A DNA stretch of 64,000 nucleotides, from contig PHCE01000001.1 in assembly GCA_002840765.1 (NCBI GenBank), positions 186,001-250,000 of the forward strand, written 5' to 3'. The notes beneath the pieces are model-generated. The model saw only the letters and a program-made list of their open reading frames with translations. It was not told the origin of the DNA and searched no databases. The position numbers and the translations under genes are program-made. Origin of the DNA: Betaproteobacteria bacterium HGW-Betaproteobacteria-7 (GTDB lineage: Bacteria; Pseudomonadota; Gammaproteobacteria; Burkholderiales; Rhodocyclaceae). Shown in pieces: positions 40,901-64,000 of this stretch; position 1 is the first letter of the stretch, and every line of letters begins with the position of its first letter.

Positions 40901-42963
40901 CCGAGAAGAGCAACGACCGGTCGAACCGGATCGTCAAGCAACTCGAGGCGATGAAGAAAAGCTGGCAGGCCCGGCTGGAAAAGCTGTCCGCCGACAACAA
41001 GAAGGACGACCTGCTGACCTGGGAGCAACTGGGCGTCGACTGGCTGTTCGTCGATGAAGCCCACTTGCACAAGAACCTCTACCGGTTCACCAAGATGACC
41101 CGGGTGGCCGGGCTGCCGCTGACCAGTTCGGAACGCGCCTTCGATCTGTACCTGAAGACGCGCTACACCATGCAGCGCCACGGCAATGCGCAGCGCGGCG
41201 TGGTGTTCGCGACGGCGACGCCGGTGGCCAACACCATGGCCGAAGTCCACACCATGATGCGCTACCTGCAGCCCAAGCGGCTGGAGGAACTCGGGCTGCA
41301 GCAGTTCGATGCCTGGGCGGCGACCTTCGGGGAGAGCGTGACGGCGCTGGAGATTGCGCCGGACGGCAGCGGCTACCGCATGCACACGCGCTTCGCGCGC
41401 TTCATCAACGTGCCCGAGTTGATGGCGGTGTTCGGCGAAGTGGCCGACATCCGCACGGCTGAGATGCTGGATTTGCCAGTGCCGACGCTGCGTGGCGGCA
41501 AGCCACGTATTGTCGCCTGCCCGGCCAGCCCGTCGCTGAAGGCCTTCGTTCAGACCCTGGTGTTGCGGGCGGAAGCCATCCGCAACGGCGAGGTCGATCC
41601 GAAGGACGACAACATGCTGGCGGTGACCACCGACGGTCGCAAGGCCGCACTGGACTTCCGGCTGGTGGCGCCCACGGCACGCTTTGATGAAAACGGCAAG
41701 GTGGCCGCCTGCGTGCGGGAAGTACATGCCATCTGGCAGCGCACGATGGATTTCCGGGGGGCACAGTTGGTGTTCTGCGACTTGTCGTCCCCCAAGGGCG
41801 GCAAGGCGTTCAGCGTCTACGACGACTTGCGGGCGCGGCTCATGGCGGCGGGCATTCCTGAAAAGGAAATCGCCTTCATCCATGGCGCCGAGACCGATGC
41901 CCAGAAGGCCGCGCTGTTCAAGGCGGTACGGGAAGGCCGGGTGCGGGTGCTGCTGGGGTCCACTGCCAAGATGGGGGTGGGCACCAACGTGCAAACGCAC
42001 CTCGTGGCTCTGCATCACCTTGACGCCCCATGGCGTCCCTGCGATGTGGAGCAGCGGGAGGGCCGTATCCTGCGCCAGGGCAACCTGAGCGAGGAAGTGG
42101 AGATCTTCCGCTACGTCACCCAGCAAAGCTTCGACAGTTACTCGTGGCAGACGCTGGAGACCAAGGCGCGTTTCATCGCCCAGGTCATGGCGGGCGACAA
42201 GGGCATCCGCTCGCTGGAGGATGTGGAACTGGCGGCACTGTCCTATGCCGAGGTGAAAGCTTTGGCGTCGGGCAATCCGCTGGTGATCGAGAAGGCCGGC
42301 GTGGATGCGGAGGTGGCCCGGCTCTCAACTTTGTTCTCGGTGTGGCGCAACCAGCGCTACGCCAACGAGAGCGAGGTAGGCCGGTTGCCGATGATGCTGG
42401 AGTCGCTGGAGAAGAAATTGGCACTGTACGCAGAGGACGCCACTCGCATTGAACCGCAGACCATGCAAAGCATCGCGGTGGAACTGGCGGGTCGCAAGAT
42501 CGCGGGTCCCGATGCGGTGGGCGAAGCGCTACGCGGCTTGGTGAAGTCGGCCAAGGAAGAAGTGCGCACGGCCAGCCGGATGATCGAGCGGGTCGTCGGC
42601 CGCTTTGGCGGTTTCGACCTCGGCATCCTCGCCGCCCGCGGCGACGAGACGCCCAGTCTGTACCTGGCGGGACACTGCCTGTACAACGCCGAGCCCTATC
42701 AAACGGGTCCGGCCCTGGTGGCGGCCTTGCTGGGAGCGCTGGGATCGGTCGGCAAGCACCACGTCGATACCGTGGCGCAGTTGGCGACCCGCCGCAAGCG
42801 GCTGGAGGATCTGCGGCTGGAACTGGCCCGGCCCTTCGAGCACGAAGGCCGGCTCACCGATCTGCTGGTCCGGCAACGAGAACTGCTCAAGCAACTCGAC
42901 CTGGACAAGGATGAAGCGGGCAGTGCGAAGGCAGACGCCGAAGAAATTCGGCAAGCCGCATGA
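37960..42963 (+). CDS. N6-adenine methylase fused to a SNF2/DEAH-type helicase
   Basis: A 1667-residue protein of the large mobile-element methylase-helicase family. The SAM-dependent methylase part (about residues 170-400) has LEPAAGIGHFIG (SAM motif I) and GNVPFGKYQ, an Asn264-Val-Pro-Phe catalytic motif IV. The helicase part has Walker A VGAGKT at 871, the DEAH box FVDEAH at 1032-1035, and motif VI in EQREGRILRQGN (about 1365). A coiled C-terminus follows. The start at 37960 follows the leader's hairpin-flanked ribosome site. The usual proposed role is modifying or protecting element DNA during transfer. Confidence 0.9.
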   Translation: MARRSTAPSLWLPGFDPDEPPILPELATPIVVPSVEAALAECIEASRIETPEPAVVARASWRTTSQVVEAAPRILWPRLTSAGRLYPVGAVAKFEANLVAIDTLQRIENENRAPAAEERQALQRHTGWGGLPASFNLNTDEPAWAERARRLQDLLPPEDYASARASVNNSHYTEIHVIEAMWQAILGFGFSGGRVLEPAAGIGHFIGAMPENLAERSTVTAIEIDHLSGRILQALYAPGGADVRIAPFEKTPLPENWFDLVIGNVPFGKYQVADQSNRAYAHYSIHNYFLGRALDLVRPGGLVCLITSSHTLESRQETVRQYLASQAHLLGAIRLPKGAFAGIAATEAQTDILFLRKRQRSETVEAEWLDITAVPNELRHPLAPPNRYLPINEWYMRHPEFCIGRIRSESNGYEEVPMAVFEGDLEATLLERIALLPTDVFEPVKHAAAALRVVVPAEAGARPGSFRLHQGRVHRVEGSEQVDVHDLFNATQRARITGMCAIRDHARALLDAQLEDESDGPLGHLRAMLNGTYDRFVAKYDCLTARANALAFRRDPDYPLLLSLEHYDEESGTARKAALFTQRTLSRVVEPDRAGEPCEALAASVQWRGRVDPAYMAGLLEAPEAEVLDVLANAGHIFRDPMDGSWKTADDYLSGNVKTKLKQAVLSGAAYRRNVEALEKVQPEDLPPAAIEPRLGAVWVPAHDVESFVQEVLELKDCQVGYSAEAGAWSVKYGEWEARQNVKVTQEFGTSRMNAIELVQCALNVQVPTVRDRDQETDKYYVNAAETLAAREKLGLVKERFATWAFSETERRERLCRIYNDLFNATRPRHFDGSHLKLPGFSRCFDLHPHQPNAVWRIVQSGNTGLFHVVGAGKTAVCVIASMELRRLGFANKPCHVVPNHMLAQYTAEFVRLYPNASVLMATKEDLEGNRRRELVSRIATGDWDAVVITHSSFERIKLSPQFTEGYIKEIIHEIEMAVRAEKSNDRSNRIVKQLEAMKKSWQARLEKLSADNKKDDLLTWEQLGVDWLFVDEAHLHKNLYRFTKMTRVAGLPLTSSERAFDLYLKTRYTMQRHGNAQRGVVFATATPVANTMAEVHTMMRYLQPKRLEELGLQQFDAWAATFGESVTALEIAPDGSGYRMHTRFARFINVPELMAVFGEVADIRTAEMLDLPVPTLRGGKPRIVACPASPSLKAFVQTLVLRAEAIRNGEVDPKDDNMLAVTTDGRKAALDFRLVAPTARFDENGKVAACVREVHAIWQRTMDFRGAQLVFCDLSSPKGGKAFSVYDDLRARLMAAGIPEKEIAFIHGAETDAQKAALFKAVREGRVRVLLGSTAKMGVGTNVQTHLVALHHLDAPWRPCDVEQREGRILRQGNLSEEVEIFRYVTQQSFDSYSWQTLETKARFIAQVMAGDKGIRSLEDVELAALSYAEVKALASGNPLVIEKAGVDAEVARLSTLFSVWRNQRYANESEVGRLPMMLESLEKKLALYAEDATRIEPQTMQSIAVELAGRKIAGPDAVGEALRGLVKSAKEEVRTASRMIERVVGRFGGFDLGILAARGDETPSLYLAGHCLYNAEPYQTGPALVAALLGALGSVGKHHVDTVAQLATRRKRLEDLRLELARPFEHEGRLTDLLVRQRELLKQLDLDKDEAGSAKADAEEIRQAA

Positions 42964-49130: not shown

Positions 49131-52100
49131 CTATGCATTGGGTTCCAACGCCTGGACTTGAATTCGCCTTGCTCGAGGGGAGGTTCGATCCCGAAAATAG
49201 CCATCACCTCGTCCTTTCAACGCGGTCAGCGCCTCGGGTTCCATATGGACGTTAGGCGCATTTTTCTTAGCCTCTCTCATGTCCATCGGTTTTAGTACCA
49301 ACCATGTCGCAGCGTTCGCCTTCACCTCAGAACCAAAGTGATCGCTCATTTGAGACGCGAGTATCATGCCGAGCCCAAACTTTCTGGCTTCAGTAAATAG
49401 TAGATTCAAGATTCGGTCAGCCGCATCAGGATCCCCTCCTCCGGTCGCGAGAATCTTGGCTTCATCGATAATTACAAATAACCGGAAACGTTGTCGGTCA
49501 TCTGCCGGCTGTACCGGAATCGGCCCCTTGAGGCGAAGCACACGGAAAATCTTTCGCAGCAACGTTTCTGCGGCGATGTATCGAACTTCATCAGGCAATT
49601 TACTGAGGTCGAGTCTGACATTTGTCGACAAAATCTCGTCCGTGGAAACGTGCTCCTGCCGTTGGAAGATCGGGTGCTCGAAGATCTCCTGTACGGCAGC
49701 CAAACACCCCTCTATCGCGGAACGCTGACTCTTGCGGGAATCATCCTCGGACCATCCGGACAAGATGCGTTCAACGTCGGCAAACGTTGGCGGCGTATTG
49801 CGCCAGGTCAGCGGATCGCCATCGTCAAAACCAGCCGTCTGGTAGGCTTCCTCGATGGCATCGCGAAGAATTGCATTCTGCCGATGGCCGAGTGCCGGTA
49901 CAGCATTGCGAACCATGTCCCGTATCACTTTTCGCTGGTCGTAGAGACCTGTCTCTTCGGCACTCTGGGAGTCCAATTCCATCGGATTGACGCCAGTGGT
50001 ACTCGACGTACCGGATGAGAGCAAAACCGATCGAAGACCTGGGAAATTGACATCACCATGAAAATCGAGGACCAACACAGGCACGCCGTAATCAACAATT
50101 CCCTTGCCAAGCACCTTGAGAGTCTCGGTCTTGCCGGACCCGGATGCTCCAAGAATCAACAAAAACCCATTACTTTGCCGACCAGGCAACCAAGCCACCG
50201 AATTCTTGGTATTGAGTTCTTGGCCTAAGAACAATTCCAACGACTGCTGAGTAGGGGCGGCACCCCCAACCTCAACGGCATGACTCGTCGCATCGATCCG
50301 GACCACCGCGCTCTCTGACGCATATTTTTTGATTTTGTCTTCGCCCGCGCCGGAGATTTCCTGGTCGTTCGCAACTGCGCTTGCCGCCTGCACCGACTTC
50401 TGATCAGTAACCAGAAGCTGGAACGCCTGGACGGGATCAATCGACGCGGAAACATGCCCAGCCACGCCAACCGGCTCGCGGTTCATGGGAGCATCCTCCC
50501 GCACCAATTTGGTCGCGGTCAGCACCAAGCCGACATCCGTCCCCGCCAAGGTATTAATTTCCAGCGGGATGCCGCTTTCGCTGTGGACAGTCACTGGACT
50601 CGTGGTCGCCACACTGGCCAGTTGTACGTGAACGATACGGCCGGTAAGGCGAACCTTGAGATTGCCATTGAAGAGGTCTTGCAACAGACCATGCCAACGC
50701 TCTATATATTTAGGATCAAGATCGCGAAGCAGAGCGGTATAAAGGTGCTCACGGATCACTTCCCGACGTGGTTTTGCCAATGGTGAAACCCCTTGCCCAC
50801 CAAAAACCTCTGCCAAGGCATGAAGCGTAGCAAGAACTTGATCGACCGCGTGTCCCGTAACGACACCGTCGCGGATGGTGTACGGCACATTGTCATCGTG
50901 TGTCTTGACTTCGATCACGTCTATGATCAGGTCGCCACCTTCCTCTCGAAGCCCCAGGAGATCAGCCTGCTCATTGGAATGTCTACCGGCACTAAGCCAG
51001 CGGCGAGCGTTTTGAGTATCGAGGCTAACCGCAAGGCCGCTCGGGTCCGCTCGACGATACCAGCGCATGGCGATCAATTTTCCAAGCGCTCCCTTGACGT
51101 GCTTGCCCTTATCCCCCCCAACCAAGCCGAGAATTCCGTTCGGTTCCATCGCCACCAAATCGCGGACGAGTTCTTCCAGTGTCGCCGGGTCGGCCACAAA
51201 ATGCGTTTTGCGCAATTGCTGATCCAAACGACGCACGAAGGGACTCAGATCGCGGCCAAAAGTCGTGATCTGACGGGCGTTTTCGATCCGCCTGTCGATA
51301 ACCTCGGCCTCGCCGAGACGCGGCACCAGCACCCGATGGGGGTCGGCGACAACAGTCCATGTACTGCTTTCAGCCAGTTGGTCTAGCCAACTCTTCACGG
51401 ACGCCACCTGGGGTTGATGTGTTGCCGTGCTTTGCTTCAATTCACGATGGACCAGTGTTGCGGTCGCGAAATAGGTCGCAAAGATCTCCTCTTCGGCAAC
51501 CGGGACGATCATGATCTGCTTCTTGAGCTTGTTGTAGCGATATTCGCAACTCGGCATCCAAGGACTAAGGTCATGCAGACCAGCTCGCGCGACGAGCGCG
51601 GTTCGAACCTCGAAGGGGTCAAAGACAACCGTCAGGTGTGCAGGCAATGCCTGGGTTTCATCGATGAGTTCCGGCCACTTCATAATTTCAGGGTTGATCG
51701 ATAAACTGATCAATCCACGCTCTTGTCCAGCACGAATGCGGTCCTTCAGTTGATCGTCAAGTTCTTCGAGTTCCGACGTCCAGCCACGAGTGTCGTCCGA
51801 GGTGTAGCGGAAGCGCAAATGCACGCCCCAAAACGTATCCTCAGCCGTTTCGTTATCGAGATCCAATGCCTCCAATACCGATTCGAGGAAGCGAGCCGGA
51901 CGCGGTGCATTGATGAAGAGAACCTGCAAGCCTGGCCGTGCGAAGGGACGAAGGTGCGCAATCAGCGTCGACAGGATGCCGACGCTCCTGAGCCCATCCG
52001 GCTCCAATACACCTCGCGGCGCCTCCTTGAATAGCGGCAGGTGCGCGATTGCTCCAGCATGGCCCAAGAGAGCGGGCTGCGTATTCAGCGATTCGATTTT

Positions 52101-53816
52101 CGGCAAAACGAGGACGTTAAGCAATTGCAAATCTTCAGCAGACGCCGCGACCAGCGTCTGACGCTCGGTCTCCGACAACTTTCCGCCGAGCGACTGCAGA
52201 TCGCGAACGATCGCAACACTGCGCCATAGATTCAGCGGGTGCACAGGCGACAGGAGGACTTCCGTCACGCCATCCCGACGATAAACGTACAACTCCATTG
52301 CGAGCAACCAGTGAACCAAGCGTTCGGCTTCATCACCGGCTTGGGCGTACATTTCCTGATAGGCTGACTGAAGTTGGCGCAGCAACTGGTCGTAGGCCTT
52401 GAGATAGGCCTCAGCTGCTTCAAAAATATCCTTCCGCCCGGCAAGAACCGTGACTGGCGAAACGGTCAGCTCTGCAATATGCGCCAGCAAGCGGTTCCTC
52501 GTTGCGGCCAACGAATCTGCAAGTTCAATGCAGAGTTGCGGCGCCAATTCAGCCTCAACGAACTCTTCGATCCATGACTTGAACTCCTGAAACAGGAATG
52601 GCCGCCATGCTTTGAAGGCCGTCACTTCTGTCAGTGCATCAAGACGGTCAGCCTCGATATCGATGACCCCGCCCCATTCGCTCGTCGTCGACCGAGACTT
52701 CGCCAAACCGATAACATTGGCGTTAACGCTAGTCACGGGCAGCGCCGCAGGAGAACTGTCCCCGCCGCCGGTATCGTTTGTACCAAGGGGTTCATCATCG
52801 CCGACGGTCTGATTGTTCTCCGCCTGGTCTGTCAGGACCGAGATTTGTTCGGCCAAATCGGCTAGTTTCTCATCTCCACCATCAAGCAGCAGTTCCGCGA
52901 CGAGCGACTCAACCGGAACCTTGCCGCCATCCTTGCCGTTCCCGTTTTGGCCATTGCTGGAAGCCGATGCAGCGAGTTTGCCTCGCCACAGCGTCAGCAC
53001 ATCGGCGAGTTCGACATACTTTAGATCCTCCGAACTACGCTGGTTGATCCCCCTGAGCCGCTTTCGAATCGCATTGAATCTGGCCTTTTCCTTGGCCGGC
53101 AATTGCCGGCAAAAGGTCGTCATGCGATCCCAGTCTTCGGGAGTGGCATTACTCACCATATTCAAAGCATCTGAATTTGCCTTCAGTCGACGAATGATTC
53201 GTCCTTCGGTCGCCTCGTCAGCAAGGTGCAAATCGGGGAATAGACCAAGTGCGTAAAGATGGGTTGGCGCCTTCACCGAGCGGTCCACCGGGCTCAAACT
53301 CTGTAGCGCCTTTGAGAAGGTGGCAATGGCATGCAGCGACAAACTAGGCCCCCGTGTCGACTTAAGGGCATCCCATAGGGTCCGCAGCCTCAACACCTCG
53401 GCCCGATCCCGTTCTTCCTCGCAAAGCAGTTTGATCAGGCTATGTTCGCCCAAAGAGCGAAAGTCTTTCAAGGAAGCCTGTTTGCTGAGAGGCCCGTTGG
53501 CGATCACGACGATGGTTTTTAGCTTCTGGTTCCGCCATTGCACAGCCGTTTCCTCATCAGAGGCTACGAACTCTGCGAACTTTGGATACAAACCCTGAAA
53601 GTTCGCGATATCGTCACGTTCGCCGACAAGGGAAATGCGCAGGCGCCCTTTCGTTTTTGCGAGCAAGTCCGGCAGCATCGCCAGGAAATGCTGCTTGTCA
53701 AACATGGCCACATCCTGGGCGACAACGCCGAACTCTTCGCGATGGACGGCAGTTTCAAATTCGGCCAACAGCAGTTCCGCTACGCGTTCATTAACCGCAT
53801 CTCGCTCGTCATTCAT
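49131..53816 (-). CDS. HerA/DptH-like ATPase with PD-(D/E)XK-type motif
   Basis: A 1561-residue protein, third gene of the putative defence operon. The C-terminal third is a HerA/FtsK-type ATPase: Walker A GASGSGKT (1223-1230), VLDFHGDVNFPG, Walker B LFVIIDEAK (Asp1451), and ILASQMSDHF (sensor). Residues 952-971 hold Asp952-x16-Glu969-Val-Lys971 in ADLLGLREEGG and IEVKT, a PD-(D/E)XK pattern. Length, order and layout match DptH of phosphorothioation-dependent restriction. The ATG at 53816 follows GGAGG and overlaps the previous stop; a longer frame to 53876 is less likely. Confidence 0.82.
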   Translation of the reverse strand: MNDERDAVNERVAELLLAEFETAVHREEFGVVAQDVAMFDKQHFLAMLPDLLAKTKGRLRISLVGERDDIANFQGLYPKFAEFVASDEETAVQWRNQKLKTIVVIANGPLSKQASLKDFRSLGEHSLIKLLCEEERDRAEVLRLRTLWDALKSTRGPSLSLHAIATFSKALQSLSPVDRSVKAPTHLYALGLFPDLHLADEATEGRIIRRLKANSDALNMVSNATPEDWDRMTTFCRQLPAKEKARFNAIRKRLRGINQRSSEDLKYVELADVLTLWRGKLAASASSNGQNGNGKDGGKVPVESLVAELLLDGGDEKLADLAEQISVLTDQAENNQTVGDDEPLGTNDTGGGDSSPAALPVTSVNANVIGLAKSRSTTSEWGGVIDIEADRLDALTEVTAFKAWRPFLFQEFKSWIEEFVEAELAPQLCIELADSLAATRNRLLAHIAELTVSPVTVLAGRKDIFEAAEAYLKAYDQLLRQLQSAYQEMYAQAGDEAERLVHWLLAMELYVYRRDGVTEVLLSPVHPLNLWRSVAIVRDLQSLGGKLSETERQTLVAASAEDLQLLNVLVLPKIESLNTQPALLGHAGAIAHLPLFKEAPRGVLEPDGLRSVGILSTLIAHLRPFARPGLQVLFINAPRPARFLESVLEALDLDNETAEDTFWGVHLRFRYTSDDTRGWTSELEELDDQLKDRIRAGQERGLISLSINPEIMKWPELIDETQALPAHLTVVFDPFEVRTALVARAGLHDLSPWMPSCEYRYNKLKKQIMIVPVAEEEIFATYFATATLVHRELKQSTATHQPQVASVKSWLDQLAESSTWTVVADPHRVLVPRLGEAEVIDRRIENARQITTFGRDLSPFVRRLDQQLRKTHFVADPATLEELVRDLVAMEPNGILGLVGGDKGKHVKGALGKLIAMRWYRRADPSGLAVSLDTQNARRWLSAGRHSNEQADLLGLREEGGDLIIDVIEVKTHDDNVPYTIRDGVVTGHAVDQVLATLHALAEVFGGQGVSPLAKPRREVIREHLYTALLRDLDPKYIERWHGLLQDLFNGNLKVRLTGRIVHVQLASVATTSPVTVHSESGIPLEINTLAGTDVGLVLTATKLVREDAPMNREPVGVAGHVSASIDPVQAFQLLVTDQKSVQAASAVANDQEISGAGEDKIKKYASESAVVRIDATSHAVEVGGAAPTQQSLELFLGQELNTKNSVAWLPGRQSNGFLLILGASGSGKTETLKVLGKGIVDYGVPVLVLDFHGDVNFPGLRSVLLSSGTSSTTGVNPMELDSQSAEETGLYDQRKVIRDMVRNAVPALGHRQNAILRDAIEEAYQTAGFDDGDPLTWRNTPPTFADVERILSGWSEDDSRKSQRSAIEGCLAAVQEIFEHPIFQRQEHVSTDEILSTNVRLDLSKLPDEVRYIAAETLLRKIFRVLRLKGPIPVQPADDRQRFRLFVIIDEAKILATGGGDPDAADRILNLLFTEARKFGLGMILASQMSDHFGSEVKANAATWLVLKPMDMREAKKNAPNVHMEPEALTALKGRGDGYFRDRTSPRARRIQVQALEPNA

Positions 53817-55296
53817 GAGTTGCCTCCAGCAGACCGACAACGGCGACACTGTCCGCCAGGCGTCGGGCAAGTCCAAGGGATTCGAGGCGGCTCAGAAACC
53901 GCTCGCTATTTTCGCTGAGCAAACGCACTGGCACGGTCGCACCGAGATGAGCCAGCAATGCTGCATCCTCGACCCTGCCACCGACGACTATCGCCCATTT
54001 CTGGCGCAGGAGTTCCAGGAAGTCGCGGTATTCCATTGGCTGAGCACTGACATCGATGGTTGAGGCAACTAGAACCTCGAGCGTTCGGTCGGCCGGATTC
54101 AGGCGCTTGTTAGGATTTTTTTGCGTCGGGTACAGAAAACCAGAACGGATACCAAGAAGGCGAAGATAACCATCGAGCCCACGACGAGACGTTCCTTCTG
54201 CCTGGCGAAGGAGTTCTTCTGCCACTTCACGACGGACTTCGTCCAGATCAGTATTGTCTTGGACAATTTCTTCGATACGACGGACCAGTGGATTGTTCAC
54301 CTCCAGGGGCGCCTGCCCGACGCTCTCGAACAAGGAGTTTATCGCCGCCAGCGGAGCGCTCGGCCAGTCCAAGATTTGCTCGGTTAAAAGGTCATCCAAC
54401 ACGGAGACCATGTAGTTACAGGCATCATTGATGAGTTGTGTGACGCAGCGCGTACTGGCCTGTGCAATCGCCGAATAGTGGTCGCCCGACGCATCCAGCA
54501 GGAGAATGCGTGCAGGATGTCCGGCGCGTTCATGTGCCCGGGTTGCCGCGTGCATAAACACTGACAGAGCAGCAAGTAACACGACGCGCTGCAAACTCGC
54601 AATGGGATTAGGATTGAGTTTCCGTTCGTAGGCACATAAACAATTAGCCGCGGACCGCAACGCTTCTTCCAGAGGCGAATAGCCACTTCCCAAATCCTCG
54701 GCCGTGACGACAGCCGGTTGCCGTTTTTTTGTAGAGTCGACCAAGGGCGCCAACAAGGCTGACAGATCGTCCATATGCGCTGGATCCTTATCAGGCGAAC
54801 TCAGTTCTGCCAGCAGGTCAAGGATAGGCAGCCGGACAGCAGCATCGTGAGCACCCCACAAGCGATGCACAAAAGCCCCGGCACCGTCATCCGATGGATC
54901 GCCGGTAACGGTCAAGGCCGTCGGCGAAGAAAACGACGAAAATTCCGGGGAGTTTCCGAATGCGGCACCATCGGTGCCCAATAGCGTGCGAATCAGCGGC
55001 AAAACCTTGGTCATCAACAAGGACGACTTGATATCTGACGACTGCCCCAAGGCACCCCAGCGATCACGCTGACTATCCAGCATCGAGCGCACGGCATTGA
55101 TGCGTGCATCCATACTGTTTTTGGGTAAAGTGGCCACAAACAGTTGCTCGAGCACTGTCATTCGACCAGTGCATTGGTGCTCGCTGCGCATCAGCGCGTT
55201 GGCAATGTGGACCGGCTTTATCTTTGCCTCCATCACCTTGTAGCCATGCCGGCGATGCAGTTCGTCAGTGAGCGCCTTGCGGAGTTGTTTACTCAT
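53809..55296 (-). CDS. DptG-like protein (by position)
   Basis: A 495-residue, mostly helical soluble protein beginning MSKQLRKALTDELHRRHGYK. No catalytic motif is obvious. It lies between the DptF-like and DptH-like genes and has the size expected of DptG, so I name it by context. GAGG lies upstream of the ATG, eight bases after the first gene. The TGA overlaps the next ATG (ATGAATGA). Confidence 0.65.
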   Translation of the reverse strand: MSKQLRKALTDELHRRHGYKVMEAKIKPVHIANALMRSEHQCTGRMTVLEQLFVATLPKNSMDARINAVRSMLDSQRDRWGALGQSSDIKSSLLMTKVLPLIRTLLGTDGAAFGNSPEFSSFSSPTALTVTGDPSDDGAGAFVHRLWGAHDAAVRLPILDLLAELSSPDKDPAHMDDLSALLAPLVDSTKKRQPAVVTAEDLGSGYSPLEEALRSAANCLCAYERKLNPNPIASLQRVVLLAALSVFMHAATRAHERAGHPARILLLDASGDHYSAIAQASTRCVTQLINDACNYMVSVLDDLLTEQILDWPSAPLAAINSLFESVGQAPLEVNNPLVRRIEEIVQDNTDLDEVRREVAEELLRQAEGTSRRGLDGYLRLLGIRSGFLYPTQKNPNKRLNPADRTLEVLVASTIDVSAQPMEYRDFLELLRQKWAIVVGGRVEDAALLAHLGATVPVRLLSENSERFLSRLESLGLARRLADSVAVVGLLEATHE

Positions 55297-55304
55297 GGGA
55301 AACC

Positions 55305-58300
55305 TCAGTTCGCGGAGTCGTAACGACGATTTACCAGATCAACGACTACCGTCGTTCTCAGTTCGCTCTGCGGGTCTACGACATCCACCGTACGGACATC
55401 GGAACTCTTATCTCCGTACTGCGAGAGAGTGTCATTGAATTGACCCAGTCGCCGGCTGATCTCGCTTTGCCCATCGGCAATCGAGCCATGCAGCAGACCT
55501 TCCAGCAGTTCGGTATCGACGACCAGCCTCGCAAATCGGGGATCGTCCGCCGAGGCAAGCAAAAGGTGGCCGGTCGGCTGCTCGCCAAACGCCTTTCTCA
55601 GCACCGGTGCCAACTCCTGCTTGTAGAGCCGCAGGCGGTTTCGGTTGACTGCCAGGCCGGAAACCATGGCCTGACTTCTTGATCTCGGTTGGTATGAAAG
55701 GCGTGTCCACAACCGCAGGGCATCCCCCTTGGACTCCCCTCCGCGATTCCACCAGCGGTTGATTAACGTAATCAACCGGCTGAGCCGGATCGCCATCGCG
55801 ACTGATGTATCCTGTAGTTCCTCAAATAACCGATTTGCCTCGGAGAAATCGAGGAGGTGTCCTTCCTTGTGTTCGAAATACCAGCGGCGCTTGAGGGCAG
55901 TGAATTCATCGGCCAAGTTGCGTTGCTCCCGCTCGGCAAGTTCGTCGAGGTTACGCTGCAGCGCCGGTAGCATCGAATTTCCGACGAAGTCGGAAGGATT
56001 GAAAATTCCCCGCCACAAGTTCTCGTCGATCTGCGGGTTCGTTTGCTTCAGCGGATCGATCCCGCGTGACAACAATTCAAAAATAGCCCCTTCGCCTTCG
56101 AAGGCGTTCCAGTAATAACGCGTTTCCTCACTGGTCCCCAACTCCTTCAGTTCTTCACACGTCTTTCCGGCAAACAAAGCGTAGGAGACGAAAGCCAGTG
56201 CCTCGCGAAACGTCACCTTCGCGCCGGTTTTTCCGACCGTCGTCAGTAACTTGACCATGCGCTGGCGCGGCAACTCTGAGCGCAGCATGGTCCGATTGTA
56301 GGTCACGGCGCAGGTCGTGTTTGCTCGGCATTTGCTGCATCCTTGGTACCAGTGGTCATCGGTCAACTTCTCGATAATCGCGGCAATAAGGTCAGCGGAC
56401 AACACACGGCGGTGACTCAAGTCGACAATGACTGGTTCGCCAGCGGATGGTTTCCAGTTCTCGGCATCACCAGTCTGCAAACTTTCGAGCGGCTTGTAGC
56501 CAACAAGGCGCAGCAACTGCCCTCGAATATCTTCCAGCCAGGGCTGAGTCTGACGGTGTTCCCGAACTAGGTCCACCAGCGGCCCCTCATTGATCGCGAT
56601 ACAGAACGGGCGTTTCTCGTCTCGCGCAAGTTGCCAGCGCGCGGCGATATCCGCTGAAGTCAGTTCGCTTGCATCGGTGACCACTTCGGCCCCCTTCAAT
56701 TCCTTCCTCATGAGAAGAATCGCATGGGTCTTGCCGTCGCCAGCGTTGCCAGTAATGACCACCGAACCGCCGTTGCGGACTACCTTGCGTACAACCTCCT
56801 CAAGATTGGTCTTGATATTCAACTCTTTTAACCGAGTGAGGCTGACGTGATCGCTGAACGCGCTCTCGTTTCGGTACAGCAGCCGAATAAACTGTAGCCG
56901 TTCGTCGGTCATGATTTCGGTCTGCATGTCGATCCTATCTCCTTTGACTGTTCTGAACGGCAGTTGACCTTGCGGTGCAGAATCGGCCGGTCGCTCGGGT
57001 ATCAATCGTGAAACACGCTCGGTCAGTGGCGTCGACTTGGCGACTGCCTCCAGGGATGGGAGGTGATCGAGACGAGAAGCAAGCCATCGCTGAATCCAGT
57101 AACTGCCGATGCTCTGTTCAGCACCAGCCTCGGATGGGTCAATGGCGTAGGTAGGTTCTTCGTCGATGCCCAGCAGCACACGAGGAAGGTTTTTGACCAG
57201 GGGGACACCGTAGATGATACGTGGGGAACCATGTTGCAGCAGATTGGTTTGATTCAGGCCAAGGCCTGTAAATCCTTCGCGCAATTGCCGAAGTTTCGGG
57301 CTTTGACCTTCACCAAACACAAAATTGACGTTGCGAAAACCGACGGCTGCCTCCGCAATCGCGGCTAGGCCGAGTTCGGTTTCAGCCGACAGATTTGGGG
57401 AGCCAAAGCCTTCGGTTCGTCCAAGTTGGGTATATTCAATACTCGACGATTGACCAGGAACGGTCCCCGGGGGCAACTTCACCCGGTTGTATTGCGACGA
57501 GTGGTCCGTATAAAGGCTAGTCGTACCAAGAAATGCCAGATGCGGTTCCTTGCTGATGGGACGTCCGGCCATCTGGCTGGCAATGATGCTTACCATTCCC
57601 TCGTAGCGCTCGCGGTAGTCATTTACGACACGGGGACTCATCATCATTAGGCAGACGAGTTTTCCACCCAGCAAATGGTTGTACGGCGCTACCGCGCCGC
57701 ACACGGTCAGTTCCATCATGCTGGTTGCGGAATAGCGTTTCTTGATTTGCTTCAGGGCTACATTCAGTGCCCAGGTTCCGTAGTCGGTTGCCGCCAGGTC
57801 ACGAAGACTGCAACGCCAAGTCGCGATCGTGCGGTAGGCACGCAAAATTTCGCGGGTCGCACGCGCTCTCTTCGAGCGGAATAGAGGGGTTTTTGTCAGA
57901 TGGACCAGCCGTTCAGGAGCCAGATCTTCGACCCTCTTATTGGCATTTTCGTCGTCGCCTTTGAGCGAGTCCGTACGGTCGCGGATCGAATCCTGTTCAA
58001 TCACAGCCAGCCGGCTCAGTGTCTCGTCGTCAACACTGTGGTCAATTCGACGGGCAACAGGCAGGTCGTCTCGATAGATTTGCTCGAAGTCTTGCTCCAG
58101 TCGCCCCCGTAGCGCTCGAAGCACTTCGCTATCGGTAAATTCACCCCGACCGCAAAGACCTAACATGCCTTCGAGTGTCCAGCCAAGGGCCAGATCTCGG
58201 GGTGTCAATTGCATCACGGTATTGCCCAGCGCAGTGATGCCGATAACAGGATGGTTCGGCTGCGCCGCATCCCGAACCAGATAGAACAGATTGCGGCCGG

Positions 58301-58973
58301 GTGACGAACGATACCGCGTGCTCCAACTGTGTCGGAAGTAGCGCCAGATATCAATCAAACGGATATTCGTGAATTCGTCCCGTTCGTCGCTGACCAGTTG
58401 CAGGTACGGCCGACAGACGCGCTCAAGTAGTGCCGCACGTTGTTCTTTCGGCATAGCCGCGATGGGACGAAGTTGCTCAGCAAGCCGCCGACCATCCGCG
58501 ATCAACTCAGTGACGGGCTTGCACGACGAATACTTCGAAGGCCGCTCCATCGTGAAGAGAAACCGCCGGTGCGAGTCGTCAAGAAGTTGGTCATCTCGCC
58601 CATAGAGCAACTGCTGCCGGATAAAGGCCTTGCGCGCCACCCGGTCCTTTGGAGTGGGTGGGCGAACATAAATATGATGTGCATTGACAAGTACCTCCCA
58701 GCCAATGTGCAGCAAATCCCGCAACAGGGTTGCCGAAACCCGCGTCTTCAATGCTTGCGTTCCCTGTGTCTGGGCTTGTGCATTGGCGAACGCCGACAGC
58801 CTTGCTACAGATTCCTCATGGGGAAGTTTCGCAAGGCGCCGGAGCATCGAATAAGCAGTACCGTCATCATCGATGCTAGGCATGAACAAACGCCAGTCAT
58901 CATCTTGAGGAGCGCTTCGTGGATTTTTTTCGGGAGCGCGTGGCTTCGAAGGTTGAGAAACAGTAATCTCCAA
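55305..58973 (-). CDS. fusion of DruA-like (DUF4338) domain and DptF-like ATPase
   Basis: A 1222-residue protein. Residues about 60-620 resemble the Druantia DruA/DUF4338 family: GRNLFYLVRDAAQPNHPVIG and QLTPRDLALGWT (225-265), YNHLLGGKLVCLMMMSP (near 430), LGTTSLYTDHSSQYNRVKLP (near 490) and LGRTEGFG. The second half is a P-loop ATPase with Walker A GNAGDGKT (742-749), an AINEGPLVDLV block (near 795) and a cysteine cluster C879-x2-C-x5-C888 (SKCRANTTC), both DptF-like. The start is a TTG (58973) after AAGAAG; an ATG 30 codons on lacks a ribosome site. I know of no described gene with this fusion. Confidence 0.75.
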   Translation of the reverse strand: MEITVSQPSKPRAPEKNPRSAPQDDDWRLFMPSIDDDGTAYSMLRRLAKLPHEESVARLSAFANAQAQTQGTQALKTRVSATLLRDLLHIGWEVLVNAHHIYVRPPTPKDRVARKAFIRQQLLYGRDDQLLDDSHRRFLFTMERPSKYSSCKPVTELIADGRRLAEQLRPIAAMPKEQRAALLERVCRPYLQLVSDERDEFTNIRLIDIWRYFRHSWSTRYRSSPGRNLFYLVRDAAQPNHPVIGITALGNTVMQLTPRDLALGWTLEGMLGLCGRGEFTDSEVLRALRGRLEQDFEQIYRDDLPVARRIDHSVDDETLSRLAVIEQDSIRDRTDSLKGDDENANKRVEDLAPERLVHLTKTPLFRSKRARATREILRAYRTIATWRCSLRDLAATDYGTWALNVALKQIKKRYSATSMMELTVCGAVAPYNHLLGGKLVCLMMMSPRVVNDYRERYEGMVSIIASQMAGRPISKEPHLAFLGTTSLYTDHSSQYNRVKLPPGTVPGQSSSIEYTQLGRTEGFGSPNLSAETELGLAAIAEAAVGFRNVNFVFGEGQSPKLRQLREGFTGLGLNQTNLLQHGSPRIIYGVPLVKNLPRVLLGIDEEPTYAIDPSEAGAEQSIGSYWIQRWLASRLDHLPSLEAVAKSTPLTERVSRLIPERPADSAPQGQLPFRTVKGDRIDMQTEIMTDERLQFIRLLYRNESAFSDHVSLTRLKELNIKTNLEEVVRKVVRNGGSVVITGNAGDGKTHAILLMRKELKGAEVVTDASELTSADIAARWQLARDEKRPFCIAINEGPLVDLVREHRQTQPWLEDIRGQLLRLVGYKPLESLQTGDAENWKPSAGEPVIVDLSHRRVLSADLIAAIIEKLTDDHWYQGCSKCRANTTCAVTYNRTMLRSELPRQRMVKLLTTVGKTGAKVTFREALAFVSYALFAGKTCEELKELGTSEETRYYWNAFEGEGAIFELLSRGIDPLKQTNPQIDENLWRGIFNPSDFVGNSMLPALQRNLDELAEREQRNLADEFTALKRRWYFEHKEGHLLDFSEANRLFEELQDTSVAMAIRLSRLITLINRWWNRGGESKGDALRLWTRLSYQPRSRSQAMVSGLAVNRNRLRLYKQELAPVLRKAFGEQPTGHLLLASADDPRFARLVVDTELLEGLLHGSIADGQSEISRRLGQFNDTLSQYGDKSSDVRTVDVVDPQSELRTTVVVDLVNRRYDSAN

Positions 58974-59117
58974 AATATTCTTCTTTAGCAGCCGGCGACG
59001 TCGAATGAGTCACACCAACCCACCTGGGTTATCCCATTTCGAACAATGGCTGTGCTAGACATGTACTTAGCGGTTGATTCAAATTCCATATTTCTTTCCA
59101 AATTTTCTTTGCCGACT

Positions 59118-60026
59118 TCAAGCATCAGCCAGGGCTCTTTCGGTGTCTGGATAGCCAGGTGCTAGAGCAGCACTTTCCACACCATAAAGCGTTTGCGGAT
59201 TTCTCAGCCATAGATGATGGGAGGCGGGGTCGAGAGAGTGATCTGGCGAGGAATCAATAGACCAGCGGCGCAGTATGTAGCCGGCCACAGCTGCTCGCAC
59301 CTTTACACGTACGACGCCATCCTGCATCCCGTAGTCAGCTTCTATCGCCTTGGACCAGGTAATTCCAGGATGCGGCACTAGTTCCAATTCGAGGATACGG
59401 GCCCACTGCTCGTCGGCCACCAAGAGTTCACACTCCCCGCCTTTGGCGGTCAATTCTCGAAACTTCGTGATCCTGGTCAGGACAAAATCGCCAAATCTTT
59501 CCTTGCTTCGGTCGAACGCCCGCACATGCCAACGCAGTCCATCATCGGCCAGTGCCACCGGCACGATCTCGCGACGCGTTGGTCCTGACTGCAAGGAAAG
59601 ATAATTGATACGTAATACCCGCTTTGCACACAAGGCACGCGTCACCGCGGCAAGCGTCGACAAATCGAGTTTTCGCAGCCCCCCCGGCCCTTCGCAGGGC
59701 GCAACCTGCTTTAGCTTCACATCCAAGCCGTCGCCAAAACCCTGCTGAAGCCAAGTCAATACCCGCTCAGCCTGGATCTCGAAAAGCGGCTTGTATTCAG
59801 CCGTTGGTCGATAGCACCGGGCGGCAGCGTCATAGTCGAGGTTGTTAGGCGCCAGGTCGCGATATGCGCTCAGATCTCTGGACGAAGCTGCAGGCTTGAT
59901 ACCGAAACGAGCTTCAATTTCCGAACGCCTGATTTCGCCCGTGAAGAAGGCCCGCATTTCCAGCGAAGCCAGTCGTTCACGTTGTGCCTGCGAAAGATCT
60001 TGGATGCTGCTCTTGGCGGTGGGCAT
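59118..60026 (-). CDS. WYL-domain transcriptional regulator (BrxR/CapW-like)
   Basis: A 302-residue regulator. The N-terminal winged-helix part (RERLASLEMRAFFTGEIRRSEIEARFGIKPAASSRDLSAYR) is followed by a WYL domain (LRINYLSLQSGPTRREIVPVAL, then GLRWHVRAFDRSK) and a C-terminal WCX-type region. Proteins of this layout sit upstream of many defence operons and repress them. It is 144 nt upstream of the DruA-DptF gene on the same strand. A promoter with an inverted repeat lies upstream of its own start. Confidence 0.88.
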   Translation of the reverse strand: MPTAKSSIQDLSQAQRERLASLEMRAFFTGEIRRSEIEARFGIKPAASSRDLSAYRDLAPNNLDYDAAARCYRPTAEYKPLFEIQAERVLTWLQQGFGDGLDVKLKQVAPCEGPGGLRKLDLSTLAAVTRALCAKRVLRINYLSLQSGPTRREIVPVALADDGLRWHVRAFDRSKERFGDFVLTRITKFRELTAKGGECELLVADEQWARILELELVPHPGITWSKAIEADYGMQDGVVRVKVRAAVAGYILRRWSIDSSPDHSLDPASHHLWLRNPQTLYGVESAALAPGYPDTERALADA

Positions 60027-60085
60027 TTATCGCTACTCTGCTGGCTCGGTCGAAAAGGTTGATAGATCAAGAAGACTGATGTTGC

Positions 60086-60109
60086 TTCATCATTTTGATG
60101 AATATTATA
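60086..60109 (-). promoter_or_regulatory. WYL-gene promoter -10 and operator-like repeat
   Basis: Read on the minus strand, TATAAT (60104-60109) is followed at once by the 17-bp inverted repeat TTCATCA-N3-TGATGAA (60086-60102), which would cover the transcription start, 60 nt upstream of the WYL ATG. No good -35 hexamer was found. The layout fits autorepression. Confidence 0.6.
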
Positions 60110-60299
60110 CACGCGCATGCTCAATGAATGCGCGCGACCTGAGTGCAATTGAGGGAGAACTGTGGCCATCTTTGATGAGCGGGTGTCGGCTACACCCGAT
60201 CACAATGGGTATAGCGCCTCAAAAAAGCACGGGCGCCTGGAAAGACAGGTTCGGCAGACCAGCCCTAGCCTTTGCGAAAATGACGAGGTCACCTGTGCA

Positions 60300-62771
60300 T
60301 CACGCTGACTGTTGGCTTCTTGACAACTCCGCGCAGACCTCCAAATCGATCACGGCATCAGCCATAGCGGTCAGTTCCGGTGTCTGGGAGACAAAGAACT
60401 CCCGCTGATAGCCCCCCAGACAAAGCACTGCCCGTTTCATCGCCATAAACATGCGCTTGCGCTCCGGATCCAGCGGCCCATCGGCTTCGTCCGAGAACAA
60501 AGCGCCATAACGACGTCCCGTGTTCTGGGCGAGATACAGCGCCACCGCCCGGATCAGGCACTCGTTGATCCACACCCGTTCGCCACCGCTCATCAGGCCG
60601 ACGCTCTTGCTTTCGCCAGAGTCGCCGTCGTGTACCTGGATGTCGAAACCTTCCTTCTGTTCGCCCTTGACGGTCTCCACCTGAGTCAGGATGGAGACCG
60701 TGAAACGGGAACCGTAGGAAGCAAGCAGGAGATCGTTGGCCAGTCCCGCCAGGGCGGGTCCGGCATCGTCGATGGCCAGGGCGATCAAGCCATCATTGCT
60801 CATGCACTTGGCGAACAAGGTCCAGTTACCCAACTCGGACTGGATCTTGGCGATACGGCCCGCCACCTGCGCCTGACGAGTAGCCAAGGCTGCTGCCTGC
60901 TGCGTCAGGACAGCGAAGTTTTCGGCATCCCGCACAGTGCCCAGGTAAGTCTTCTCGGCGGCAGCGACCATCTGCGCCGCTTCTTCCATTTTTATGCGCG
61001 ACTCGATCAGACGCTGCTCGTCGCTGGATGGAGGCAAGGACGCCAACGTCTGCTTGAGCCGTTCCAGCGTGACGCGGTAGTACTTGGCCTGTTGTTCGCA
61101 TTGGGCTGCAATCGCCTGCCGCGCGGTGCCGATTTGTTGGCGCTCGGCCAACTCATCCGGTGTTTCCGCCCCTTGCTGGCAGGATGACGTTTCGCTACCC
61201 AGCACAGCCAATTCCCCCTCAATCTCGGCGAGTGCGTTCTTCGCCCGGGCCTGTTCTCCCGCATTGGCTGCCAGTAGCGCATACCGCGAGCTTCTCGCGC
61301 CTGCCACCTCGGCACGATGTTCAGCCCACGCCAGGTTCTGGGGCGCGGCGGCAATTCCTTCGTACTGCCCGCCAAGCGCAGCCAACTCCTTTTGTGCTGC
61401 CGCCTTTTGGTCTGCCAGGCGCTTGATGGCAGCCTGGGCGCCGGGAACCAGTGCCTGGGCTTCCCGCGCATCCCCCAAAAGCTGGCATTGCCCCTGCAGG
61501 TCAGTACCCGCACAGGGCACCACCCCGGCAAGACCGAAGCGCCGTGCCAATTCCTCGGCTTTGAGCGCGGCCTGCCCGGCCTCGCGCTCGATCCCGGACA
61601 ATCTTTGCCGGACCAGGTGCTCGGAAGCTTTACACTGGGTCAGGCGCTGAGCCTGCTGGCGCCAGTGGCCGACCCGAGACAGACGCAGCGACAGGACCTG
61701 TTCGGCCATGGGCAGACGGGCCTCGGCATGCCGCACGGTCGACGCACTAGCCAACACCTTGAGATACTGTTGGCGCTGATTCTGCAAAGTCTGCCGGCGA
61801 TTTCGCTCCTGGGTCAGGCGTTGCACGATACGCTGCTCCAGCCGTTCCAGACGCTGAGACTCGCCCTGCTCCTGGGCCTTCAAGGCTTCAATGGCCTCGG
61901 TGCCAGCCTGGATCACAGCGCTGCATTCGCCCTGGAGTTGCGTCCGACGTGCCTCAACACTCTGTGATTGCTCCCGTTCGGCCGCCAATTGCGCATGCTG
62001 GCTTCGGGCAACCTCCAGGCTCGCCTGAGCCCCTTGGCGTGCCGTCAGACTCTGGGCGACGCGTCCCACAGCGCCCTCAAGCCGTTGCAGTTCACCGCCG
62101 ATGCGCTGCGCATCATCATCCAGTCCTGACTGCTCCTGCCATATCGCCGCCAGACCAATCTTGAGTAGTCGCGCCGTTTCGCCTGCCTTCTGGCCCAACA
62201 CCCGGATTTCTTCCTGCCCCAACAGATCAGCGAGCAGCGTCTTGATCTCGGCATTGCGGTAGGCACTCAACTGCCGTTTGCCCTGAGCGGAAAATACCGA
62301 CGTGAAGAAGGTATCGGCATTGCCACAGATCGCCTCGACACAGCGGGTATAGGTCTCGACCTTGCCGTCCGCAACGGTGCCATCTTCGATTGCCACGGGT
62401 TTCCACGCGCCGTCGTCAGAAAGAGCAAACAGGAATGCCTCGGTCTTGCGCCGGCCGTTGAGGCGGATCACCACCTGCGAACGGTAGGTTCGGCCAGCAT
62501 GGGACCACACCAGGTCCTTCTCGTTTTCCGGAAGGCAGACGTGGTCGTAATAGGAAAAGCCGCCTGGACCTGCCGTCGCCGCCCGCGAGGGCATGGTGAG
62601 ATAGGGGTGCATATTCTCCATCACGGTGGTCTTGCCGCGCCCATTGGCGCCGGCAATGGCGACCAACTCGGCACCGTCGGCCAGTTGCTCGAAATCCAGA
62701 GTGAGGACATCGCATCCCAGACCGGCGCGGATGCCGCGAAAACCTTTGAGCGTGAGTGAAAGCGGTTGCAT
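60300..62771 (-). CDS. SbcC/Rad50-like ATPase
   Basis: An 823-residue ATPase of the SbcC/Rad50 type. N-terminal Walker A is GANGRGKTT (LVAIAGANGRGKTTVMENM). A long central coiled coil (about 210-640) carries a possible zinc-hook-like pair in VPCAGTDLQGQCQLL. The C-terminus has the ABC signature LMSGGERVWI and Walker B ALFSDEADGPLD. It is shorter than E. coli SbcC (about 1050 residues). It would partner with the SbcD-like nuclease encoded 67 nt upstream. Confidence 0.85.
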   Translation of the reverse strand: MQPLSLTLKGFRGIRAGLGCDVLTLDFEQLADGAELVAIAGANGRGKTTVMENMHPYLTMPSRAATAGPGGFSYYDHVCLPENEKDLVWSHAGRTYRSQVVIRLNGRRKTEAFLFALSDDGAWKPVAIEDGTVADGKVETYTRCVEAICGNADTFFTSVFSAQGKRQLSAYRNAEIKTLLADLLGQEEIRVLGQKAGETARLLKIGLAAIWQEQSGLDDDAQRIGGELQRLEGAVGRVAQSLTARQGAQASLEVARSQHAQLAAEREQSQSVEARRTQLQGECSAVIQAGTEAIEALKAQEQGESQRLERLEQRIVQRLTQERNRRQTLQNQRQQYLKVLASASTVRHAEARLPMAEQVLSLRLSRVGHWRQQAQRLTQCKASEHLVRQRLSGIEREAGQAALKAEELARRFGLAGVVPCAGTDLQGQCQLLGDAREAQALVPGAQAAIKRLADQKAAAQKELAALGGQYEGIAAAPQNLAWAEHRAEVAGARSSRYALLAANAGEQARAKNALAEIEGELAVLGSETSSCQQGAETPDELAERQQIGTARQAIAAQCEQQAKYYRVTLERLKQTLASLPPSSDEQRLIESRIKMEEAAQMVAAAEKTYLGTVRDAENFAVLTQQAAALATRQAQVAGRIAKIQSELGNWTLFAKCMSNDGLIALAIDDAGPALAGLANDLLLASYGSRFTVSILTQVETVKGEQKEGFDIQVHDGDSGESKSVGLMSGGERVWINECLIRAVALYLAQNTGRRYGALFSDEADGPLDPERKRMFMAMKRAVLCLGGYQREFFVSQTPELTAMADAVIDLEVCAELSRSQQSA

Positions 62772-62838
62772 GAATGGACTCCAACTAAGTCACCTGAACA
62801 GTCTGCGACACCAACAAAGGTCAGCAAGCCCGCTCAAG

Positions 62839-64000
62839 TCAGAACAGCGATACGGTTTCGAGATCGGTCATTGGCTCGGCATTGGCGCTGCTCACGTCAC
62901 AGGGAATATCCTGCCTCCGTAACACATGCTCGACGATGGCTTCGGGCTCCTGAGTTGAAAGCGTCTGGAGGCAGGTGAGCATTGGTTCCAGTTGGACCTC
63001 GGTTACCTGCGCCCACACCCGTACTTTGTCTGCCAGATGCGCCAACTGCGAAATTCCTGCCGCCCGTGTCCGCACCACCGGCACGATGCGTCCCTCCAAC
63101 TTGGTTTCCGCCGCGCCCTCCAGCAAGCGCTCAATCGCCCTACGGTCGACTTCATGACGATCTTCATCAGCAACCGTCCAGCGTACGCGCACGAAGGCAC
63201 CGGCGACGTCCTGTTGGGAGACAGTAGTTCGGAGCGTGTCGAGGTCCGGCTTGCCGTCAAATACGATATCAATCGTTCGTCGCGCCGGCGTCGGCTCCAC
63301 TGCAAAGTGCGCCTGATCGGCATCGACTTCCCACACCAGAAATCCCTTCTCGCCTTCTTCGCCGTAGTGAAAACGACCAATGGAACCGGGATAGGCAACG
63401 CACTGCCGCCCAGTTCTACTCTCCCGTTCCCAGAACTGATGCCGATGGATATGTCCGAGCATGAAAGCCTGCGCCTCGGCGGCGAACAGCGCACCAGTCG
63501 TGAATTCATGATCGAAGCCTGCCATTGGCACGCCGTGCTCGCTCAGGCAGCCGAATACGGTGCCGTGCGAGACGCCGATGGTGGGCAGGCCTTTCAATCT
63601 CGCCGCCCGATTGATCGGCACAAAACCGCGCACCAGGATGGCCAGATGCTCGCCAACCGCCTGTGCCGCGTCCGCAGCACCGACCGCTGTGGCAACCGCC
63701 GCTTTGTTCACCGTGGGCACGCAGGAGAACAAAGCACGAGCACCGGCCGGCAGTTGGTCGAAGCACCAGCCCGCCGAAACAAGCCATTGCCCCTGGGCGG
63801 TGAGTGCCACCTGTTCAATACGCTCGGCCACATGCACCGGATAGCGGCCGCCCAGCAGCTTGAAAATCGCCAGGGTGCCCGGTGGCTCGTGGGAAAACGT
63901 GCCCTGCAACATAAGCACTGGGCAATGGTCGGCCAGTCGCCGCACCTGGGCGAACAGTCGTTCGGCGGCCGGCGCGTGCAAGTCCAGTGCATGGTCAGTG
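62839..64000 (-). CDS. SbcD/Mre11-like phosphoesterase, N-terminus outside window
   Basis: At least 387 codons of a calcineurin-like phosphoesterase; the frame is open to the right edge, so the N-terminus with the first metal site lies outside. Visible motifs are QGTFSHEP (position of GNHD, so altered), GVSHGTVFG, LGHIHRHQFW (GHxH) and YPGSIGRFHYGEEGEKGF. It is the partner of the SbcC-like ATPase. The first in-frame start in the window (TTG at 63981) is unlikely to be the real one. Confidence 0.82.
   Translation of the reverse strand, partial: TDHALDLHAPAAERLFAQVRRLADHCPVLMLQGTFSHEPPGTLAIFKLLGGRYPVHVAERIEQVALTAQGQWLVSAGWCFDQLPAGARALFSCVPTVNKAAVATAVGAADAAQAVGEHLAILVRGFVPINRAARLKGLPTIGVSHGTVFGCLSEHGVPMAGFDHEFTTGALFAAEAQAFMLGHIHRHQFWERESRTGRQCVAYPGSIGRFHYGEEGEKGFLVWEVDADQAHFAVEPTPARRTIDIVFDGKPDLDTLRTTVSQQDVAGAFVRVRWTVADEDRHEVDRRAIERLLEGAAETKLEGRIVPVVRTRAAGISQLAHLADKVRVWAQVTEVQLEPMLTCLQTLSTQEPEAIVEHVLRRQDIPCDVSSANAEPMTDLETVSLF

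Follow-up and report, generated by a model that had tools for sequence, protein, structure and literature searches.

We describe a three-gene operon in a 64,000-nucleotide stretch (the window) of the genome of Betaproteobacteria bacterium HGW-Betaproteobacteria-7 (Rhodocyclaceae; contig PHCE01000001.1, positions 186,001 to 250,000), in which DruA, the marker of Druantia type I, is fused to the DptF-like ATPase of a DptFGH cassette. In the reading that we favor, and to which we give about an even chance of being right, the operon encodes a stand-alone DptFGH-type defense machine that would work without DNA phosphorothioation, and DruA is a built-in module of the sensor/ATPase DptF that would serve as an ATPase-gated acyltransferase co-effector. 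An earlier note, made from the sequence of this DNA alone, had proposed a merger of Druantia and Dpt parts. The combination holds in that DruA shares an operon with DptFGH, but as detailed below, the operon is neither a Druantia system nor, as far as tested, a phosphorothioation restriction arm. In this compact system, which lacks the large DruE helicase, DruA is tied to components whose functions are known in part, and its role therefore becomes directly testable.

The three tightly coupled minus-strand genes described in the earlier note were recovered as open reading frames in a tight array (Table 1). The fusion gene has a TTG start and is separated by 8 nt from the gene for the DptG-like protein, which in turn overlaps the gene for the DptH-like protein by 8 nt. 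The latter encodes 1,561 residues if translated from its ATG and 1,581 residues if translated from an upstream TTG at 53876. Homologues of F, G, and H lie in one operon and in the order of DptFGH, DndFGH, and SspFGH, and a comparison of neighborhoods identified the same gene order in other loci. The resemblance together with the gene order is far beyond chance.

Table 1. Features of the DruA-DptFGH operon and its upstream neighbors (window positions)
Feature	Position	Strand	Evidence
DruA-DptF fusion, 1222 aa	55305..58973	-	PADLOC DruA and SspF, Pfam DruA, AF2 model of DruA part
DruA half, residues 1-660, predicted GNAT-like fold	56994..58973	-	PADLOC, Pfam, AF2 model
DruA motifs LLGGKL (residues 434-439) and SSQYNR (residues 492-497)	57483..57674	-	Conservation
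DptF/SspF half, residues 691-1222, P-loop kinase-like core	55308..56903	-	SspF match and motifs
Walker A GNAGDGKT, DptF half, residues 742-749	56727-56750	-	
Asn-type Walker B INEGPL, DptF half, residues 794-799	56577-56594	-	
Cys cluster C-x2-C-x5-C, DptF half, residues 879-888	56310-56339	-	
DptG/SspG-like protein, 495 aa	53809..55296	-	SspG model, hhalign
DptH-like protein, putative nuclease and HerA ATPase, 1561 aa	49131..53816	-	DndH model, 7es4, hhalign
PD-(D/E)xK-type nuclease motif ADLL...D-x-IEVKT of DptH	50901..50969	-	Alignment
HerA ATPase of DptH, Walker A to Walker B	49461..50150	-	Pfam DUF87 4.2e-10
HerA Walker A GASGSGKT, DptH	50127-50150	-	
HerA Walker B LFVIIDE, DptH	49461-49481	-	
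WYL-domain regulator, upstream	59118..60026	-	Pfam WYL 7.1e-10
SbcC-like and SbcD-like pair	60300..63981	-	Weak SbcC_Walker_B, AAA_23, Metallophos_2, all under Pfam cut-offs

The PADLOC DruA model PDLC00001 matched residues 44 to 656 of the fusion (E = 4e-150), and Pfam DruA (PF14236), which we take to be DUF4338 of older releases, matched with E = 7.7e-29 and a best stretch at residues 412 to 601. These matches bear out the DUF4338/DruA-like half that had been assigned from the sequence. An AF2 model of residues 1 to 690 (predicted local distance difference test score of 88) predicts a GNAT-like fold in which a long helical segment of ~160 residues (residues 257 to 417) is inserted between core strands 3 and 4. 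The conserved motifs LLGGKL and SSQYNR fall at GNAT active-site positions; LLGGKL is a candidate acyl-CoA loop, and Tyr495 of SSQYNR is a candidate general acid. L435, G437, K438, L439, Q494, and Y495 were kept in 84 of 84 aligned long DruAs and G436 in 73 of 84, while the four short DruAs had LLGGKL (three) or LLCGKL (one) and, in all four, SS-x-YNR. Foldseek with the DruA model gave no significant match, a DruA profile searched against PDB sequences gave nothing useful (the best match, E = 0.077, was ribosomal L18), and the fusion had no match up to E = 1 among PDB sequences.

The second half of the fusion matched the PADLOC SspF model at residues 703 to 948 with E = 1.9e-18, while DndF reached only 5.6e-4. 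It has a DptF core with an intact Walker A and an Asn-type Walker B, and the three blocks that the earlier note had picked out here are largely invariant among 65 aligned relatives of the fusion (GNAGDGKT in 64, INEG-x-L in 63, and C-x2-C-x5-C in 64). An Asn in Walker B is the rule for DndF/DptF according to the parts of PMC10853773 considered here.

The 495-residue protein is DptG-like, as had been suggested: the PADLOC SspG model matched residues 235 to 487 (E = 1.1e-15), while the MAD7 model matched with E = 3.8e-6, far below the curated MAD7 cut-off. Both the F and G parts fit the SspF/SspG models better than the Dnd models. An hhalign comparison of DptG with G proteins from four loci, three MADS-type and one Ssp-type, gave 79% probability (E = 1.6e-5) over the C-terminal 88 columns. 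A published analysis describes the DptG family as DNA binding with a triple winged helix-turn-helix.

The assignment of the 1,561-residue protein as a DptH-like HerA-type ATPase is supported by the PADLOC DndH model (E = 1.5e-29 over the HerA end) and by DptH in the PDB (7es4; E = 2.6e-6). Five DruA-linked DptHs aligned by hhalign to the H proteins of one Ssp-type locus and three MADS-type loci with 99.3% probability (E = 1.4e-20) over 1,016 columns. The D...E-x-K residues were aligned in 10 of 10 H proteins compared, with ESK in the Ssp-type locus L030. Judged by these motifs, DptH would combine a PD-(D/E)xK nuclease with a HerA/FtsK ATPase. We note that one relative, the DptH of the fusion locus L024 (L024:6214-10965), ends in a RuvB-like AAA+ ATPase (Pfam AAA 3.3e-13, RuvB_N 2.7e-9) and has no HerA/FtsK match at its C-terminal end, which extends the published "capture" theme.

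The earlier note had placed DptFGH in the restriction arm of a phosphorothioation system, and this claim did not hold for the window. No phosphorothioation writer (DndC or SspD) was found in the window genome, with SspD sought without a model specific for it. DndC had no match there or in any of five other genomes (G846, G235, G200, G269, and G1181). The two matches to PF01507 (phosphoadenosine phosphosulfate reductase) in the window genome are beside genes recognized as cysI and cysN and are, from these neighbors, taken as the assimilatory cysH and cysD. Because there is no DndC match and the PF01507 matches sit by cysI and cysN, the operon is, as far as tested, not part of a phosphorothioation system. 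Similarly, models for DruB, DruC, DruD, and DruE had no match up to E = 1 among the six proteins encoded at 49131-63981, to which the search for DruB, DruC, and DruD was confined. For DruE, the whole genome gave three matches of 186 to 198 nt in frames of 472 to 517 aa with E = 3.4e-6 or worse and no full DruE. Because only helicase fragments match DruE in this genome, the operon is not Druantia type I. Three of the five other genomes had a DruE match. G200, whose copy of the fusion lies at the edge of a contig, encodes a relative of DruE (a 2,104-aa frame) on a different contig; the matches in G846 (two) and G269 are short helicase fragments only, and G235 and G1181 had none.

A fusion of DUF4338 (GNAT) to the N terminus of DndF is in print, in one phrase, in Rakesh, Aravind, and Krishnan (NAR 2024; PMC10853773). 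In the parts considered here, that paper argues that DndFGH stands alone from DndABCDE and that DndH contains a restriction endonuclease and HerA. The operon matches that DndFGH in fusion type, gene set, Asn-type Walker B, and endonuclease plus HerA in H. The text of PMC10853773 has DUF4338 once and the word Druantia not at all, and the parts covered, which do not include the supplements, contain neither DruE-linked archaeal loci nor a GHKL partner. Accordingly, the "candidate new system" of the earlier note is not new as a fusion, but the fusion has no system name, link to Druantia, or test in the parts of that source considered. The operon resembles SspFGH of SspABCD-SspFGH (PMC8092258) in that SspF and SspG are the best-scoring models for its DptF half and DptG, but it differs by having DruA fused to F and no recognized DndC/SspD-type writer. 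With Druantia type I (DruABCDE), it shares a long PADLOC-type DruA (PDLC00001), but no DruB, DruC, DruD, or DruE model matched the six proteins at 49131-63981, and the genome has no full DruE. The MADS loci (L027-L029; mad6 kinase-DptF, mad7, and an H-like protein) likewise encode F, G, and H together, with an additional enzymatic domain attached to F. In MADS, this domain is a kinase-type N terminus (all three loci match mad6 with E ≤ 4.9e-108), whereas the fusion has DruA instead and matched neither a kinase domain (hits up to E = 1) nor mad6. MADS also has methyltransferase components; the methyltransferase-helicase gene of the island, at 37930-42963, is set apart from the operon and on the opposite strand. 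By title and abstract, with supplements not covered and absence from print not proven, there was no literature report of a Druantia-DptFGH composite. The literature search also found no experimental account of DruA function, and the part of a 2020 paper considered here lists DruA as being of unknown function (PMC7251935). Within the literature searched, the Druantia link of the fusion, the DruE-DptFGH composites, and the ATPase swap described below appear to be new.

Full-length relatives are rare in the sampled genomes and many in a large protein collection. In that collection, at least 502 proteins match the fusion at E ≤ 1e-3 (7,995 candidates scored), with PF14236 present in 120 of 120 of the fusion matches listed. 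With the window's own genome counted in the family, phylum, and order samples, matches were found in 4 of 199 genomes of the family (only the window's own being full length), 9 of 398 of the phylum (three other than its own at E < 1e-89), and, at E ≤ 1e-20, 2 of 399 of the order (its own and G846). The sample of the class of G269 had matches in 2 of 385 genomes at E ≤ 1e-30, both DruA without DptF. None of 50,697 phage records had a match to the fusion. DruA-like folds at 12.7 to 17.1% identity are described for six Synechococcus phages in the parts of PMC12774648 (2026) considered here.

We compared 23 loci that contain a DruA of this family, i.e. the window, L002, L003, L039 (the same place as L004), L018-L022, L024-L026, L034-L036, and L040-L047; plasmid matches in Roseivivax THAF40 and Leisingera, another DruA site on the Halobaculum plasmid, and the fragment L005 were kept apart. 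These loci are partly close relatives, and the stretches of L025, L039, and L047 end at contig edges. In 15 of them, DptF is fused to or beside DruA, and in the other 8, an MzaB-like ATPase is encoded directly upstream of DruA (HATPase_c_3 in both of two scanned); no locus has both partners, and none has neither. In L047, the open frame holds only the C-terminal part of DruA and then DptF. A stand-alone long DruA directly downstream of the MzaB-like GHKL ATPase was seen in L021, L022, L026, L040, L041, L044, L045, and L046. DruE lay within the fetched stretch in 4 of the 15 DptF-type loci, all on haloarchaeal plasmids, and in 3 of the 8 loci with the MzaB-like ATPase; a DruE beyond that stretch would be missed, except in the whole-genome searches.

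On the haloarchaeal plasmids, the merger is plainer than in the window. In four of the five loci (L018, L019, L034, and L035), DruE joins DruA-DptF-DptG-DptH, with DruA unfused, to give a Druantia-DptFGH composite. In Haloplanus sp. GDY1, Halalkaliarchaeum sp. AArc-CO, and Natrialbaceae archaeon AArc-T1-2, DruE1, a 611-residue protein with weak similarity to DruD (1.4e-6), and a third protein precede a divergent DruA-DptF-DptG-DptH array. DruE1 is full length on these plasmids (1,568 bits in Haloplanus, L018). The DruE gene of Natribaculum longum is convergent with that of DptH. All four genes are present in Halobaculum litoreum, although G and H are fragmented and DruA is interrupted, and the stretch contains no DruE. 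Taken together, the haloarchaeal loci suggest that Druantia and DptFGH did not arise as separate inventions but have a module in common that passes between them. As side observations, L018 has a gene for a DUF262 protein one gene downstream of DptH (L018:20812-23253; best PADLOC matches HEC-06 and Orf5, SspE weaker), and L034 has a DUF262 gene at the same place. In Hymenobacter canadensis (L020:13268-21895), an IS3 transposase gene lies between DptG and DptH, DptH is apparently split, and a TmtA gene is upstream (PADLOC 4.9e-262).

To follow the descent of the cassette, we built a DruA tree of 115 sequences, comprising every second of 109 fused-length and 97 stand-alone-length proteins plus the loci. 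Here, all fused proteins fall into a single clade, which also contains a protein of 703 residues that is encoded on a 4.3-kb contig and probably cut, and the archaeal DruAs group with the stand-alone DruAs with weak support (0.83). In a tree of 13 sequences, the Hymenobacter fusion grouped with DruE-linked DruAs (support 0.81; others 0.32 to 0.64). Because the two trees disagree on the Hymenobacter member, it is not established that the fusion arose only once. That the DruA-DptFGH cassettes descend from a common ancestor is plausible only, because DruA-linked DptF and DptH members are separated from MADS and the Ssp-type L030 with support of only 0.77 and 0.78, while in the DptG tree, L030 falls among the DruA-linked members, which form no separate group.

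In the mechanism that we propose, DptG and the target-recognition part of DptH would engage invading DNA, and the P-loop domain of DptF would bind nucleotide and act as a gate. DptH would then move along the DNA by its HerA ATPase and cut it by the PD-(D/E)xK nuclease. The same gate would release DruA, a GNAT-fold enzyme, which would act as a co-effector and deliver a second blow by acylating a macromolecule with acyl-CoA as the donor; its target would most likely belong to the translation or replication machinery of the host or the phage. From the clean exchange of DptF for the GHKL ATPase, DruA is predicted to be controlled by an ATPase gate. Because of this swap and the GHKL-DruA loci without DruE, we favor DruA as an ATPase-controlled enzyme over a back-up domain peculiar to DndF.

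It is unlikely, although to be taken seriously, that the GNAT fold of DruA has no catalytic activity and that DruA instead guides DptF, the GHKL ATPase, or DruE to a target as a domain for recognition or scaffolding. The DruA loop departs from the textbook GNAT motif, Foldseek alone misses a GNAT match, and the predicted helical insert could provide a binding surface; but the putative acyl-CoA-loop and general-acid blocks are among the most conserved in long and short DruAs, which would be unusual for a scaffold. Somewhat less likely again, DruA would be a writer that acylates a nucleobase in DNA (or RNA), making the operon a restriction-modification system based on acylation, with DptFGH cleaving DNA that carries no mark. 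If DruA does mark or sense nucleic acid by acylation, this would be a restriction-modification chemistry that to our knowledge is undescribed. A broader proposal, which we regard as a long shot, is that DruA is the shared ATPase-gated acyltransferase core of a defense superfamily. Its partner would be either DptF, in which case DptGH would do the cutting, or a GHKL MutL-like ATPase, in loci that may or may not include DruE; in haloarchaea, DruE and DptGH come together at a single locus around one DruA.

The operon sits on what looks like an integrative or mobile element. A tyrosine integrase gene apparently marks the start of this island near 21 kb, after chromosomal genes, and ParM-, ParB-, and RadC-like genes lie on it; its right end was not found. 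That the operon is not defensive and instead stabilizes or moves the island, as a plasmid-like partition system with a HerA pump, would agree with the ParB-, ParM-like, and integrase genes. We consider this very unlikely, since all three gene families are modeled as defense proteins in PADLOC and relatives occur on other plasmids and genomes. We give hardly any credence to a truncated Druantia type I locus that uses a DruE from elsewhere in the genome: the four haloarchaeal composites and the DruE relative on another contig of G200 would fit it, but the window genome has no full DruE, G846 has two fragments, and G235 has nothing.

The upstream genes also bear on the extent of the system. A WYL gene does precede the operon, 144 nt upstream of the fusion gene, as in the earlier note, but a role as a fixed part is not supported: among the 15 DptF-type loci, relatives of this WYL gene were found only in the window and L002, a different WYL gene elsewhere not being excluded, and the WYL gene of L003 is unlike it at BLAST E = 1e-3. 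L002, from a Rhodocyclaceae metagenome-assembled genome (MAG), is a closely related island that shares 18.6 kb at 93.5% with the window from 45901 onwards, including the SbcC/SbcD-like pair in synteny. A contig of a Zoogloeaceae MAG, L005, matches window 57649-61751 with 100% identity over 4.1 kb and so holds part of this pair. SbcC-SbcD as a part of the system was not supported, with SbcC present only in the window and L002 among the 23 loci and SbcD sought in a subset of these loci. Near the left edge of the island are two tyrosine-recombinase-type genes (21680-23125 and 26976-28268). No tRNA lies beside them, no attachment site was found, and tRNA-Ser was rejected as one, as it has no repeat in the window and the next 16 kb. 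On the other strand of the same island, 6 kb from the operon, a gene at 37930-42963 encodes a 1,677-residue methyltransferase-helicase (Eco57I/N6_Mtase and Helicase_C) with weak matches to DrmD and mad2 (mad2 E = 8.3e-14).

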